Source: Qipengyuania proteolytica (GTDB lineage: Bacteria; Pseudomonadota; Alphaproteobacteria; Sphingomonadales; Sphingomonadaceae). Taken from it: DNA of 64,000 bases. The stretch is taken from the NCBI RefSeq assembly GCF_019711565.1, contig NZ_JAIGNN010000002.1, forward strand, positions 310,001 to 374,000, given 5' to 3'. This document shows, piece after piece, positions 40,048 through 45,227 of the stretch; the stretch's first letter is position 1; each line of letters opens with the position of its first letter. The notes beneath the pieces are model-generated. The model saw only the letters and a list, made by a program, of their open reading frames with translations, made no database searches and had not been told where the DNA came from. The translations under genes and the position numbers were made by a program.

Positions 40048-41391
40048 GTGACAACAGAGCCTGTCGCACCGAACAACAGGATCGACGTCGAAGAACGGAA
40101 GAGATATTTCGTCATCGGCGCAGACGAACAGCAGCTTCTCGCGCAGATCTGGAGCGAGATCGAACCGCGCATGGACTGGGTCGTCCAGCCGATGCGCGAC
40201 CGGTTGGAAACCCAGGTTGCGGATGGCGAATTGCCCCGCGATTTCGACGTCGACGGCACGATCGAGGCGATGCGCAAGAGCATGACCACGCATTACGGCA
40301 GGCCAATCGACGAATACTGGATGAAGGCTGCAGCCGGCGTCGGCAACTGGATTACCGCCAACAAGACCGATCCCTACCGCGTCATTGCCCTGATGCACTT
40401 GTCCTTCAGCCGCGTGCAGGTGTTCGCTTGCGAGAATGCCCGCGATCCAGACGACATGGCCCGGCGCCTGAAAGTGCTCGGCGCGATCAACCACATGGGC
40501 GCGGAACTGGCCGTGGCGCGGGTCAACCGCATCGCGCGGTACAAGGAAGCGGATCGCCGCGCCGAAATCGCGGAGCGGTTCCGCACCACGATTGCCGAAC
40601 TGGTCGCCGCGACGACCAGGCGCAGCGACGCCATGACCAAGCTGGCCGGCCGGGCCAGGGAATCGACGCGCGCGCTGGTGGTCGATGCCGCCGACATTGC
40701 TTCGGCTGCGGAGCAGTCGGCCCAGGTCATGGGCAATGCCGCGCAGGAATCCGCCATGCTGGTCGAAAGCATCCAGGAAACGCGCAGGTCGGTCGGCGAC
40801 ATCAGCCGGGTCAGCACCGATGCCGCGCGCGAAGCCGACGCGGCCGGCGCGGTCATCTCTGCACTCAGCCAGCACACGAGCGAGATCCAGAGCGTCGTCG
40901 CGATGATCCGCAACGTCGCGGATCTCACGCGGATGCTGGCGCTCAATGCGACTATCGAGGCAGCCCACGCCGGCGAGGCCGGCAGGGGATTTGCGGTGGT
41001 CGCGGAGGAAGTGAAGTCGCTCGCCCGGCAGACCGAGGTGGCGACAGACGAGATCGTGCGCCAGGTGGCGGGCATCCAGTCTTCCGGCGGGCAGACCGTC
41101 CAGGCGAACCTCGCCATCGCGCAAAGCATCGGTCAGGTCTCGCAGACCACGGCCTCTTTCCAGAACACCATGGAAGCCCAATCCAGCCAGGTGACGACGA
41201 TTGCCAGCATGATCGACGAGACCGCAATGACTGCCCGCGCCATGGCCGATACGATCGCTTCCATCCGCACCGCAGCCGAGGCCGTCGACGCGCAGGCCGA
41301 TCAGGTTGAGGATGCCTTTGGCGATGTCAGTCGAAAACTTGGCGATCTGGAGGGCGCCGTCGGCGAATTCCTGCGCGATATCGCCGCCTGA
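40048..41391 (+). CDS. Globin-coupled soluble chemoreceptor
   Basis: The 447-residue protein has no membrane segment. Residues about 18-165 match globin-coupled sensor domains (opening R-Y-F-V-I-G-A-D-E, proximal-histidine region [11 protein letters not shown] with H82), and residues about 190-440 form a methyl-accepting signalling domain with hairpin tip near 291-320 ([14 protein letters not shown]). The tip starts A-D-L-T-R in place of the usual A-D-Q-T-N. It would sense oxygen or another gas through heme and signal to CheA. The GTG start is inside a potential regulatory hairpin. No che genes are nearby. Confidence 0.8.
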
Positions 41392-41539: not shown

Positions 41540-41836
41540 ATGAGCGAGAATGAAACCACAGAAACCGGCGCGGCAGGCAGCGATCGCCGCGCCTTCCTGG
41601 CAGCCTGCGGCAAGTATTCGCTGACCGTGCCGCCTGCCATGACCGTCCTCCTGTCGACTTCGCTGTCAGCGCAGTCGATCGCTGAATCGGGCGGGGGCGG
41701 CGGCAGGCCGGAAGGGCCGCGCGGCAACAATGGTGTCGGCAACGGTATCGATCCGCAGCCGCCCGGCAACCCGCCGGTGAACGATGGTCCGGGCACAGGC
41801 CCTGGCAATCCGGGCAACCGCCGCGGGCGGCCATAG
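41540..41836 (+). CDS. Small twin-arginine-type Gly/Pro/Asn-rich protein
   Basis: A 98-residue protein with a good GGAG site. Residues 15-16 are a twin-arginine pair (D-R-R-A-F-L), followed by C-G-K-Y-S-L-T-V-P-P-A and a hydrophobic stretch ending S-L-S-A-Q-S. The remaining ~50 residues are almost only Gly, Pro, Asn, Arg and Asp. It lies 40 bases before a PqqD-HPr-kinase-like fusion and is the most likely substrate of that cassette. It could be a ribosomal peptide precursor or an exported structural protein. Not a named family to my knowledge. Confidence 0.72.
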   Translation: MSENETTETGAAGSDRRAFLAACGKYSLTVPPAMTVLLSTSLSAQSIAESGGGGGRPEGPRGNNGVGNGIDPQPPGNPPVNDGPGTGPGNPGNRRGRP

Positions 41837-41876
41837 GACGCGCCGGGCGATGGAGTTCGTCCGCGCCGGACAGTGA

Positions 41877-43016
41877 ATGCACCAGCCGGGCGATCTGCGC
41901 GCCGCCGATCTTGGCACCGCTCCCGCCACGTCGCTCGCGGTCAGGGCATCGGCGAAATCGGCCCTCTTCGCTTTCGACGGAGCGGATTGCGCCTTCTCGG
42001 AACTGAAGCAGGAAGTCTACCGGCTCGAGCCGGCCATCGCGCGCGTACTGGCCTCGCTGCGCGAGCCTCGGCCCTTCGACCGGCTGCGCGAGGAGATGAT
42101 CCCCCAGCTCGCTGGCGCCGAGGCGGATTTCGAACGGCTGATGCTGCAATGGTCGGACGCGGGCCTGATCGAACTGGTGCAGTCGGCGGCATCGGAGGAG
42201 CCGGGTCCGGCTGCCAGCTTGCCACTACCGGGCTGCGCAATCGGGTTGCAGTGTATCGAGCCCGCAGGCGACTGGTTCGATGCCTTTTCGCACCTTCCAT
42301 CGACTGAAGAGCCCCCAGGCCGCATCGTCGCGCAGACGGCGGGTGGCCTTGGTCTGATTGCCGCGAGCGACGGGACTTCGCGCATCGTGCCGCGCGACCT
42401 CTTGCCCGCCGCCTTCCGGTTCGGCGTGATGCAGTTCGTCCTCGACCGGTGTAGCGAAATCGCGCTGCACTGTGCGTGCCTTGTCGCAGGGGGCGAGGCG
42501 ATCCTGCTGCTCGGTCGCCCCGGCGCGGGCAAATCCACGCTGGCGATGTTCGCGGGCGAACAGGGTTTCGCCGTTGCCGGCGACGACGTCGGCCTCATCT
42601 CCCCGCGCGACCGGACGATCATGCCCGTCGCCTTGCCGCTTACGCTCAAAAGCGGGAGCTGGGACAGGCTCGCCGAAACCGCCCGGCGCGGCCCAGATCT
42701 CCGGCCGGTGCCGCGCGAGGATGGGATCGAGGTGCTCTACCGGCCCCTGCCCCAGCCCCCTGCCGAGCGGCCGCTGCGCATTCGCGCGCTCGTCCTGCTC
42801 GACCGCCACGATGGCAAGACGGTGCACCTGGCCGAATGGTCGAAAACCGACTGCCTTCGCCATCTCTGCAGCGAGGCCAAGTCGCGCTCTGGCGCCGCAT
42901 CGCGCGAAGATATCGAAGGGTTCGTGGCGATCGTCGAGCGAGCCGAAATCCTGCGCCTCACCTATGCCGACGCGCGCGACGCGGCGCTCGCGCTGGGGCG
43001 GCGGTTTGCGGGCTGA
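41877..43016 (+). CDS. PqqD-like domain fused to an HPr-kinase-like domain
   Basis: A 379-residue protein. Residues about 15-105 resemble PqqD-type peptide-binding domains (F-D-G-A-D-C-A-F-S-E-L-K-Q-E-V-Y-R-L, then D-R-L-R-E-E-M near 70 and W-S-D-A-G-L-I-E-L). From about 190 comes an HprK-like kinase core with Walker A G-R-P-G-A-G-K-S-T and G-D-D-V-G-L. The family is known from the annotation 'HPr-rel-A system'; there the PqqD part is, as I recall, a separate protein. It may bind a leader and phosphorylate the small protein encoded upstream. It overlaps the next gene by 11 bases. Confidence 0.78.
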   Translation: MHQPGDLRAADLGTAPATSLAVRASAKSALFAFDGADCAFSELKQEVYRLEPAIARVLASLREPRPFDRLREEMIPQLAGAEADFERLMLQWSDAGLIELVQSAASEEPGPAASLPLPGCAIGLQCIEPAGDWFDAFSHLPSTEEPPGRIVAQTAGGLGLIAASDGTSRIVPRDLLPAAFRFGVMQFVLDRCSEIALHCACLVAGGEAILLLGRPGAGKSTLAMFAGEQGFAVAGDDVGLISPRDRTIMPVALPLTLKSGSWDRLAETARRGPDLRPVPREDGIEVLYRPLPQPPAERPLRIRALVLLDRHDGKTVHLAEWSKTDCLRHLCSEAKSRSGAASREDIEGFVAIVERAEILRLTYADARDAALALGRRFAG

Positions 43017-44034
43017 GCAGGCCAGTTTCGCGGCGATCTGCGAGGCCTTGCGCGGTGCCCCGCCCCGAGGCGCGGACTGGGACTCGCTGCTCGCCCTTGC
43101 CAACCGCACGCTCACCACGCCCGCGCTGGCCGCCGCGCTGGCCGGCAGGGGCGACATTCCGCGGGACGTGACCGCCTTCCTCGCCACCATTGCCGAGCGC
43201 GCCCGCCAGCGCCATGCGATGATGCACGGCCAGCTGGGCGTGGCAGTCGCCGCGCTCGCGGCGGCAGGCGTGACGCCGATCCTCATCAAGGGGGCGGCCT
43301 TCATGGCGGATGGCTCGCGCCAGCCGGGCGACCGGATCTGCGCCGACCTGGACCTGATGATCCCGTTCGACGGGGCCGAGGCCGCCGTGGCCGCGCTGGA
43401 GGGTCTCGGCTACGCGCGCAGGCCATCGGCTGCTCCGCCCGATGTCGGCCTCAACCTCGCGCGGGGGAGCGATGCCGGCGGGCTCGACCTTCACTTCTGC
43501 CTTCCCTCGCTCCACCGCTACTGCGGCTACGACGACCTCGCGCCCCGCTGCCGCGCGATCGCGGTCGGCGAGGCGCAGGCGCTGCTGCCGTCACATTCGG
43601 TGCAAGCGGCCTTGCTCGTCGCCCATGACGAGATTCAGGAGCGCGGCTACTGGCGTGGTTCGATCGACCTGCGCCACCTGCACGACATCGCGGCCTCGGT
43701 CGCGGTGCATGGTCCACTCGACGCAGAGGCCATGCAGGCGCTGTTCCCCGATAGACAGGGCCGCCGGATCCTTGCGTCCTGCCTTCTCACGCTCGAAACG
43801 GTCTTCGCCATCGCGCTGCCGAGTGGACTGCAAGCCGCTCCGAGAGCTCGCCTGCAGGCCCGCCGCAAGCTGTGGCAGGTCGGCGCCCCGTGGAGCGCGA
43901 AGCCGCTCACACTCGCCAGCTTGCTGGTCGATTTCCCGCGCACGCCCGCATCGCTGCGCTCACGGGAAACACGCCGCAAGCGCGCGCAATATTATCGCAG
44001 AATGTTCGAGCCGCCCAAACCGACCAAGGTTTAG
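43006..44034 (+). CDS. Nucleotidyltransferase-family protein of the kinase cassette
   Basis: The protein has 342 residues if it starts at the TTG at 43006, inside the end of the kinase-fusion gene; no ATG or GTG exists near the family N-terminus. It matches the NTP_transf_5-type fold: L-I-K-G-A-A-F, R-I-C-A-D-L-D-L-M-I with paired aspartates, and a C-terminal helical region with H-D-E-I-Q-E-R. Such proteins accompany HPr-kinase-like and PqqD-like proteins in peptide-modification loci, where a nucleotidyl or phosphoryl group may be transferred. Strong Arg/Ala bias as in the neighbours. Confidence 0.78.
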   Translation: MRAEQASFAAICEALRGAPPRGADWDSLLALANRTLTTPALAAALAGRGDIPRDVTAFLATIAERARQRHAMMHGQLGVAVAALAAAGVTPILIKGAAFMADGSRQPGDRICADLDLMIPFDGAEAAVAALEGLGYARRPSAAPPDVGLNLARGSDAGGLDLHFCLPSLHRYCGYDDLAPRCRAIAVGEAQALLPSHSVQAALLVAHDEIQERGYWRGSIDLRHLHDIAASVAVHGPLDAEAMQALFPDRQGRRILASCLLTLETVFAIALPSGLQAAPRARLQARRKLWQVGAPWSAKPLTLASLLVDFPRTPASLRSRETRRKRAQYYRRMFEPPKPTKV

Positions 44035-44045
44035 GCAGGCGGTCC

Positions 44046-44933
44046 CTACTGCCGACGGAGCTGATCAAGGAAACGCTCGGTCGCGTGCTCGAGGTCGGTC
44101 ACGATACCATTGAGGTGGACGACCGAATCCTCGATCTCGCGCGACAGCTTGGATGCATCGCCCGCCGCACTGGCCACTTTTTCGCAGCGCTCCAGAACAC
44201 GCGAGATCGCCTGGACGCCCTCCTCGGCTGACTCGCGGATCGCGACCGATTTCGACTGCTGGTCGCGGATTTCGACGCCGATAGCCTCGGCGGAATCGAT
44301 CAGCCGGGTCATGCCTTTCGTGACCTGCCGCAGCGCATCGTCGGTATCGCTTGCACCGCTGCTGATCCCGTCGATCACGCCCGAGGCTTCTCCAGTTACG
44401 CTCTGGACGCGGTTGGCTAGCGATTTCACCTCGGTAGCGACGACCGCGAAGCCGAGACCGGCCTCGCCGGCGCGAGCCGCTTCGATCGAGGCATTGAGCG
44501 CGAGCATCTTGGTCTGGTCGGCGATCCCGCCGATGGTCGAGACGAATTCTTTGACGTTGGCCGTGTAGGTGCCGAGCGAACCGATCACATGTTCACTCTT
44601 GTTGGCGGTCTCGCGTGCCTCCTCGCCGATCCTGGCAAGGAAACCCCATGAGATATCGACCGTGGCGACTGAGTCGTGCAGCGCCCGGGCATCGCTCGCA
44701 ACGCGAACCGATTGGTCGGATGCGCGGTTGGCTTCCTCGACCACTGCCGAGACTTCGCGGCCCGTCATTTCGACGAAGCTCTGCATCAGGTGCGCCGCCT
44801 GCTCCAGCTGGGCAGACGCGCTGGCCACGGCGTGGGCAACGGAGGCGATCGAGGAGCGGAACTCGCTGGCAAGCGCGTCCAGCTGGCCGGCCTCGGGTCC
44901 ACTATTGTCCGAAACTGGCTGAGGTTCTGCCAT
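44046..44933 (-). CDS. Soluble methyl-accepting chemotaxis-type signalling protein
   Basis: A 295-residue cytoplasmic receptor-like protein with no membrane helix and no recognisable sensor domain. The signalling hairpin is clear ([21 protein letters not shown]), flanked by long helices. It is last in a same-strand series FadL, DsrE-like, TusA-like, receptor, with gaps of only 31-35 bases. That suggests it responds to something in that pathway. It is convergent with the nucleotidyltransferase gene at 44034. Confidence 0.82.
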
Positions 44934-44968
44934 CGTTTGCGACCTTTTTCCGGAGTCCGGAGCCGGAA

Positions 44969-45196
44969 TCAGGCCCGGCGCTCGATCACGTAGCGATAGG
45001 CTTCGCCCGCCCTGCCCTGTTCGAGCAGCTCGTTGCCGGTTGCGCGGCAGAAGGCCTGGAAATCCTCGACCGAGCCCGGATCGGTGCAGAGCACCTCGAG
45101 CGTGTCGCCGCCGGCCATGCCGGACAGCGTCTGCTTGGTCTTCAGGATCGGAAGCGGGCAGTTCAGCCCCTTCGCATCGAGCGTCTTGGTCGTCAT
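44969..45196 (-). CDS. TusA-family sulfurtransferase
   Basis: A 75-residue TusA/SirA-like protein with the defining C-P-x-P motif at residues 13-16 (C13 is the persulfide carrier) after D-A-K-G-L-N. Family members pass sulfane sulfur in tRNA thiolation, molybdenum cofactor or sulfur oxidation pathways. Being next to a DsrE-like protein suggests a sulfur relay rather than tRNA modification. Confidence 0.9.
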
Positions 45197-45227
45197 CGCA
45201 GTACCCCCGCACTTTCGTTGTATTATC

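Follow-up and report, generated by a model that had tools for sequence, protein, structure and literature searches.

In a 64,000-nucleotide stretch of the Qipengyuania proteolytica genome (contig NZ_JAIGNN010000002.1, positions 310,001 to 374,000; hereafter the window), we examined a cassette of three consecutive plus-strand open reading frames (ORFs) at 41540-44034. They encode a small protein with a twin-arginine (RR) motif, a fusion of a PqqD-like domain, i.e., a recognition element of ribosomally synthesized and post-translationally modified peptides (RRE), to an HprK-like kinase, and an NTP_transf_5 protein. We judge it reasonably probable that this cassette makes a modified, exported peptide, with the RRE gripping the leader of the small protein, the kinase and the NTP_transf protein acting on a Ser residue, and the twin-arginine translocation (Tat) system and signal peptidase I exporting and trimming the product. 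A first-pass annotation, made from the letters of the window, had described three such genes, two of them overlapping, and this description held in full: the fusion and the third gene most likely overlap by 11 nt, the small protein (98 aa) carries an RR motif and a Gly/Pro/Asn-rich tail behind Ser50, and the third protein matches PF14907.

The three genes are conserved as a unit. Full-length fusions were found in eight of 396 genomes of the window's order, and in all eight cases an RR gene lies directly upstream and an NTP_transf gene directly downstream; because these cassettes stay together while the fusions are 24-45% identical to that of the window, the three-gene set is not a chance arrangement. 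The genome searches scored the best few candidates per genome (for the fusion, four at the order level and five at the class level; for the small protein, 12-13), so that this and the other presence counts are to be read as "at least." Closer to the window, 36 of 147 relatives gave some match, and a full-length fusion was present only in the window genome and in genome G025. A profile of the small protein matched nine of the 396 order genomes, of which the eight strong matches (E 6e-26 or better) are the same eight fusion genomes, and the ninth (G233) is weak and covers part of the profile only. Three of the eight (G322, G283, and G387) carry an additional RR gene at a distance of 1.4 Mb or on a separate contig, an arrangement that points to substrates in trans; in G246, two RR genes lie close together.

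This pattern bears on the possibility that the RR protein is a mere neighbor and that the enzymes, like HPr kinase, have a different target in the cell. Such an arrangement would account for the RR genes of G553 and G561, two genomes of the class sample in which the fusion was not found. However, the gene order is conserved in all eight order-level cassettes, strong small-protein matches occur among the 396 genomes nowhere but in those with a fusion and have extra copies there, and RREs as a class bind peptides (PMC13381572), and we consider this explanation very unlikely. A signaling kinase acting on HPr itself was also put low because of the co-occurrence pattern.

Across the class, the cassette is spread patchily through the Alphaproteobacteria, including Sinorhizobium meliloti. 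In a sample of 385 class genomes, besides the window genome, fusions were found in G784, G797, G624, G526, G819, and G750, and a fusion fragment at a contig edge in G806; the other two class fusion matches (G147 and G447) cover the kinase part only. Small-protein matches occur in 11 of the 385 genomes, nine of them at E 1e-9 or better, and seven of these nine also have a fusion or fusion fragment. Plasmid records add cassettes from Novosphingobium RL4, Ensifer canadensis, and Sinorhizobium (seven records had at least 78% coverage, and three of the seven were inspected). The cassette of S. meliloti Ak57 is annotated as a serine kinase, a nucleotidyltransferase family protein, and a hypothetical protein, with the RR gene linked, and other S. 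meliloti strains carry RR gene copies on plasmids of 1.6-1.8 Mb, including pSymB of strain 1021 and, at locus L161, plasmid p_2 (1.65 Mb). The record with the Ak57 kinase gene (L159, 9022-10122; CP090106.1; 3.7 Mb) is labeled plasmid pSymB, but its murA, hisD, and infA genes give it the look of the S. meliloti chromosome.

Neighbors were inspected at 17 full-length fusion loci (eight from the order, six from the class, and three from plasmid records), and the small gene stands beside the fusion at 15 of them and the NTP_transf gene at 16. The small gene is upstream of the fusion at the eight order-level loci, in G784, and in Novosphingobium; at the loci of G624, G526, G819, S. meliloti, and Ensifer it is on the far side of the NTP_transf gene. 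The G750 contig breaks off inside an RR gene without the Cys, and no NTP_transf gene was found before that point. The joining of the two domains in one protein, which had been singled out at first as unusual, is not unique to the window but typical of this alphaproteobacterial family. A scan of the contigs of the genome collection with the window fusion alone gave no match, and a scan with alignment A4 recovered Q. qiaonensis along with 11 distant kinases from Bacillota, Acidobacteria, and Verrucomicrobia. A looser relative, which was kept out of all counts, was seen in G070 (L046, 6850-8158), where a 386-aa HprK-like protein and an NTP_transf gene accompany a 63-aa RR protein that has APAAS and lacks the conserved Cys. 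In G553 and G819, an RR gene lies far from any fusion (L164, 7522-7788, and L168, 5769-6047), with the same neighbors in both, some of them phage-like by eye.

The small protein points to a single residue. Twenty-eight homologs, found by profile, tblastn, and regular expressions for RR.FL or CG[KR][YF], align without gaps over 35 residues, with the leader consensus RRxFLxxCG[KR][FY]x4PP. Counting from the first Arg as position 0, R0, R1, F3, L4, C7, G8, P16, and S34 are invariant in all 28 and P15 is kept in 27, while an AxA-like site is formed by Ala at position 30 (26/28) and position 32 (25/28), positions 29 and 33 being free. S34, equivalent to Ser50 of the window protein, is the only invariant hydroxyl residue and stands two residues past the AxA-like site. 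The R, F, L, C, and G residues were partly selected by the expressions, and the Ser is in none of these, although profiles A5 and A10 contain it. The invariant Ser is encoded by TCN in every case, and the codon class therefore adds no independent support. Two proteins outside the 28 agree: a variant in G806, which is one residue shorter, and the pSymB copy of S. meliloti 1021 both keep AxAxS. Pairwise identity over 40 residues ranges from 0.33 to 0.93 (median 0.60), and the 28 include the proteins of G553, G561, and Bradyrhizobium 195, in the last of which the fusion was sought on the plasmid only. Behind the Ser, a tail resembling GPKGNNGxGNGxDPxPPGNP is found in six of nine order-level proteins, and the remaining three have other Gly-rich tails.

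The conserved RRxFL motif and AxA-like site, together with a tatC gene and two signal peptidase I genes over the cut-off in the window genome, are Tat-type features that would fit export by this route. The conserved Cys is not taken as the mark of a lipoprotein: in many members the residues ahead of it do not match a lipobox, and it does not follow a hydrophobic stretch. It is also conceivable that the system serves export control, with the RRE acting as a Tat-signal chaperone and a phosphate near the cleavage site gating or timing export or cleavage rather than forming part of the final product. The conserved stretch is indeed the signal region, the mature tail is variable and of low complexity, and the Ser is just two residues from the predicted cleavage site. 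This explanation leaves no role for the NTP_transf gene, which adjoins nearly every full-length fusion, and in the linear polyphosphorylated peptides (LPPs) the core keeps its phosphate after release (PMC13381572); we regard it as improbable.

The C-terminal part of the fusion resembles an HprK-type kinase. It scores 43.5 bits (E 2.1e-11) against TIGR04352 (HprK_rel_A), a model with a cut-off of 200 bits, and four other members of the fusion family score 62-110 bits; in profile comparison, the kinase half resembles HprK. A Foldseek search with a poor AlphaFold2 model placed PEPCK chains at the top and HprK further down (1kkl, E 0.009), a result that supports a kinase fold only. The residues His198, Lys219, Asp236, and Asp237, which correspond to the catalytic set of lasso-peptide kinases (PMC9266682), are all kept in the eight order-level fusions. 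The same set is kept in all rows of a 12-row alignment that includes Bacillota kinases adjoining [YW]xxP precursors, and is complete in 12 of 13 family rows. This homology and the invariant Ser support the predicted phosphorylation of the small protein.

That the N-terminal part is PqqD-like, as had been proposed from the window protein, stood at the level of the family. The Pfam model PF05402 matches eight of 13 family N-termini (best 2.9e-11), and a profile of all 13, searched against the PDB, ranks three lasso-peptide RREs on top (TbiB1, 5e-6; PbaB1, 8e-5; TfuB1, 0.0075), followed by an ABC-transporter protein (0.18) and LppB (0.21). The best non-family matches of a nine-row model of Sphingomonadales N-termini, window included, among 4,102 background ORFs were discrete PqqD proteins: of the ORFs picked up, eight were scanned, one of them a weak match only; seven exceed the Pfam PqqD cut-off and the eighth falls below it at 17.2 bits, and they include discrete proteins adjoining paeninodin-type kinases. 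A model that omits the window and is built from eight family members outside its order recovers the window protein at 6.3e-7. TIGR04353 (PqqD_rel_X) matches three of the 13 family members (best 4e-4). Judged from these profiles, gene 2 is an RRE-kinase fusion at the family level. Thus neither of the two findings that the first-pass annotation had named as fatal to its reading, homologs rarely adjacent and an N-terminal part unlike PqqD, was obtained, and that reading is supported.

For the third protein, the motif residues K, G, DxD, and DxH are invariant in the eight order-level proteins. The overlap of its start with the fusion stop at 43016 recurs in G025, G190, and G246, and the other four order-level cassettes allow an overlap of 14-86 nt, taking the first start codon; judged by the overlap common to relatives, TTG at 43006 is most likely the start of the gene. 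The invariance of the motif would fit direct nucleotidylation, in which the NTP_transf protein places a nucleotide on the small protein, with the kinase domain providing or controlling the substrate, and PMC9266682 leaves this activity open for PsmN. The sole effect that we found described for a relative, however, is the addition of hexose on phosphorylated Ser (PMC9266682), and we think direct nucleotidylation an unlikely route.

We therefore favor the modified, exported peptide, for which the following steps may be proposed. The RR protein would be a precursor whose first about 48 residues double as Tat signal and RRE-bound leader. The fused HprK-like kinase would phosphorylate Ser50, behind the AxA-like site, perhaps several times, and the NTP_transf_5 protein would add a hexose or a nucleotide onto the Ser50 phosphate. 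Export would proceed via Tat and the leader would be removed by a housekeeping signal peptidase I. The mature peptide, about 50 residues long and rich in Gly, Pro, and Asn, would carry the decorated Ser as its second residue. In agreement with the first-pass annotation, inspection by eye recognized no gene for a radical-SAM enzyme, cyclase, protease, or exporter in the gene calls at about 30-56 kb, which were made without a domain search of the neighbors and with a simple, imperfect gene caller that missed the NTP_transf gene itself. Since a Tat-type signal with an AxA-like site would make dedicated protease and exporter genes dispensable, it would also explain why the cassette is so small.

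Several observations weigh against this reading. The modification, its site, and the export are read from sequence, and the 28 small proteins, being relatives with paralogs among them, do not stand for 28 independent events. The first 112 residues of the window fusion match no PqqD model on their own, and a PDB search with only the eight order-level N-termini is weak (ABC-transporter protein 5yjz, 0.067; PbaB1, 0.073). In the 12-row AlphaFold2 model, the fusion N-terminus is poor, with a mean predicted local distance difference test score of 53.6. The G750 fusion has Glu in place of Asp237, and the G797 fusion has no adjoining RR gene. In G553 and G561, where the small-protein match is at E 1e-9 or better, the fusion was not found, in a search without a positive control, and PF14907 was not found in G553. 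In G561, an unfused kinase-like ORF, a PqqD protein, and an NTP_transf protein stand in a row on another contig (L177, 134-2304; PF05402 E 5.8e-13 for the PqqD protein), a split version of the same set. The [YF]x4PP of the leader differs from the [YW]xxP of the RRE ligands described in PMC13381572. Finally, the homolog LppN had no effect in its test host, in which deletion of lppN changed nothing visible, according to the same source.

In a more far-reaching form, the proposal would define an alphaproteobacterial class of Tat-exported peptides, in which one N-terminal stretch is both Tat signal and RRE leader, a single RRE-kinase (poly)phosphorylates mature residue 2, the NTP_transf protein caps the phosphate before export with a sugar or nucleotide, the housekeeping Tat system and signal peptidase I replace a dedicated transporter and protease, and one enzyme pair serves several scattered substrate genes. 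We offer this only tentatively, as a real possibility that falls somewhat short of being probable. One kinase and one Ser make for a precise and cheap test, in the well-studied S. meliloti.

Table 1. Features of the cassette, in coordinates of the window.
Feature	Position	Strand	Basis
Small RR protein, 98 aa, candidate substrate or precursor	41540..41836	+	ORF; homologs
RRAFL, Tat-type twin-arginine motif, residues 16-20	41585..41599	+	R, R, F, L in 28/28; RR.FL part of search expression
Cys23-Gly24-Lys25 of CG[KR][YF] leader motif	41606..41614	+	Cys, Gly in 28/28; partly selected by expression
SIA, AxA-like signal peptidase site (predicted), residues 46-48	41675..41683	+	Ala at equivalent positions in 26/28 and 25/28
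Ser50, proposed phosphorylation site, +2 of predicted cleavage site	41687..41689	+	Ser in 28/28, 34 residues past first Arg
Gly/Pro/Asn-rich tail of predicted mature peptide	41690..41833	+	Composition; tail pattern among nine order-level proteins
RRE-kinase fusion, 379 aa	41877..43016	+	Domain matches; family alignment
PqqD/RRE-like domain, about residues 20-105	41934..42191	+	Family-level profiles
HprK/PEPCK-type P-loop kinase domain, about residues 170-379	42384..43013	+	TIGR04352; profile; fold
His198, P-loop GRPGAGKST (Lys219), and Asp236-Asp237, the His-Lys-Asp-Asp set	42468..42587	+	Family alignments
NTP_transf_5 protein, probable TTG start at 43006, 342 aa	43006..44034	+	PF14907, E 4e-24; shared overlap
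NTP_transf motif residues KG, DLD, DLH	43288..43494	+	K, G, DxD, DxH invariant in 8/8

Around the cassette (Table 1), two chemoreceptor-like genes lie one on either side (40048-41391 and 44046-45212); by eye, the first includes a globin-like sensor part. The gene lepA, also recognized by eye, is within about 8 kb of three of the eight order-level cassettes. Upstream of two cassettes (L089, 3-3105, and L090, 94-3298), 2-oxoglutarate oxygenase-, TPR-, and methyltransferase-like genes (by eye) are followed by a TonB receptor. PHROGs and PADLOC searches gave nothing useful for the cassette.

A search of the open-access literature (bioRxiv and most subscription journals excluded) found no description of this cassette, and the only comparable system was that of PMC13381572. 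Clusters of PqqD, nucleotidyltransferase, and lasso B2 proteins have been reported as correlates of halotolerance (PMC10040529). The tailoring enzymes of paeninodin and pseudomycoidin (PadeK, ThcoK, PsmK, and PsmN) share with the cassette a homologous kinase domain with His-Lys-Asp-Asp and an RRE and, in pseudomycoidin, an annotated nucleotidyltransferase partner: there, phosphorylation is due to PsmK and the addition of one or two hexoses to the phosphorylated C-terminal Ser to PsmN, nucleotidylation not being excluded (PMC9266682). By contrast, no macrolactam synthetase (C)/cyclase or B2 protease was recognized by eye in the gene calls here, and the proposed acceptor Ser is at the mature start of a peptide without a lasso core rather than at the C-terminus.

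The HPr-rel-A gene set is likewise similar: at L041, L047, and L048, genes for an RR protein, a PqqD-like protein, an HprK-like kinase, and an NTP_transf protein follow one another, by our own reading of these loci rather than a curated definition. It differs in that PqqD is separate there and fused here, that the 13 RR proteins collected are 129-171 aa long and have a Cys close to the mature start, compared with 98 aa in the window, and that the window kinase falls far below the TIGR04352 cut-off and its fusion has no TIGR04353 match. Three discrete PqqD proteins of the HPr-rel-A set, compared by profile with the fusion N-termini, gave no clear signal either way (probability 6.6). All 13 HPr-rel-A-like RR proteins, collected by regular expression (L004, L005, L006, L009, L047, L072, L073, L076, L077, L078, L081, L083, and L085), have a Ser shortly behind the AxA site and four residues before the Cys, the Cys being part of the search expression, and nine of the 13 have Thr at AxA+2. 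The Ser suggests a logic common to both systems, and its similar place would offer a function for the HPr-rel-A genes. The second RR gene of G283 is convergent to an apparent HPr-rel-A kinase and NTP_transf pair (L130, 3297-5744), and the two systems may share substrates.

The closest parallel is with the LPPs, which have the same enzyme set and whose kinase puts several phosphates on core Ser3 (PMC13381572). Common to both are an RRE, an HprK-like kinase with His-Lys-Asp-Asp, an NTP transferase gene, a linear precursor with a conserved leader and a variable core, and a Ser shortly after the point where the leader is cut off (Ser3 in LPPs, predicted +2 here). The RRE is fused to the kinase here and discrete in LPPs, no SipW-like SpI peptidase or MsbA-like transporter was recognized by eye in the same gene calls, and the twin-arginine leader with [YF]x4PP contrasts with the YxxPxVLxHQxIxFETxxS of LPPs. 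LPPs are also called restricted to Bacillota in PMC13381572, whereas the present family is alphaproteobacterial. Overall, the cassette would work like the LPPs but lacks several of their defining features; if the modified, exported peptide is the correct reading, phosphate-based peptide tailoring would extend from the lasso-peptide and LPP clusters of Bacillota to the Alphaproteobacteria, where Tat would serve for export and a housekeeping signal peptidase for removal of the leader.

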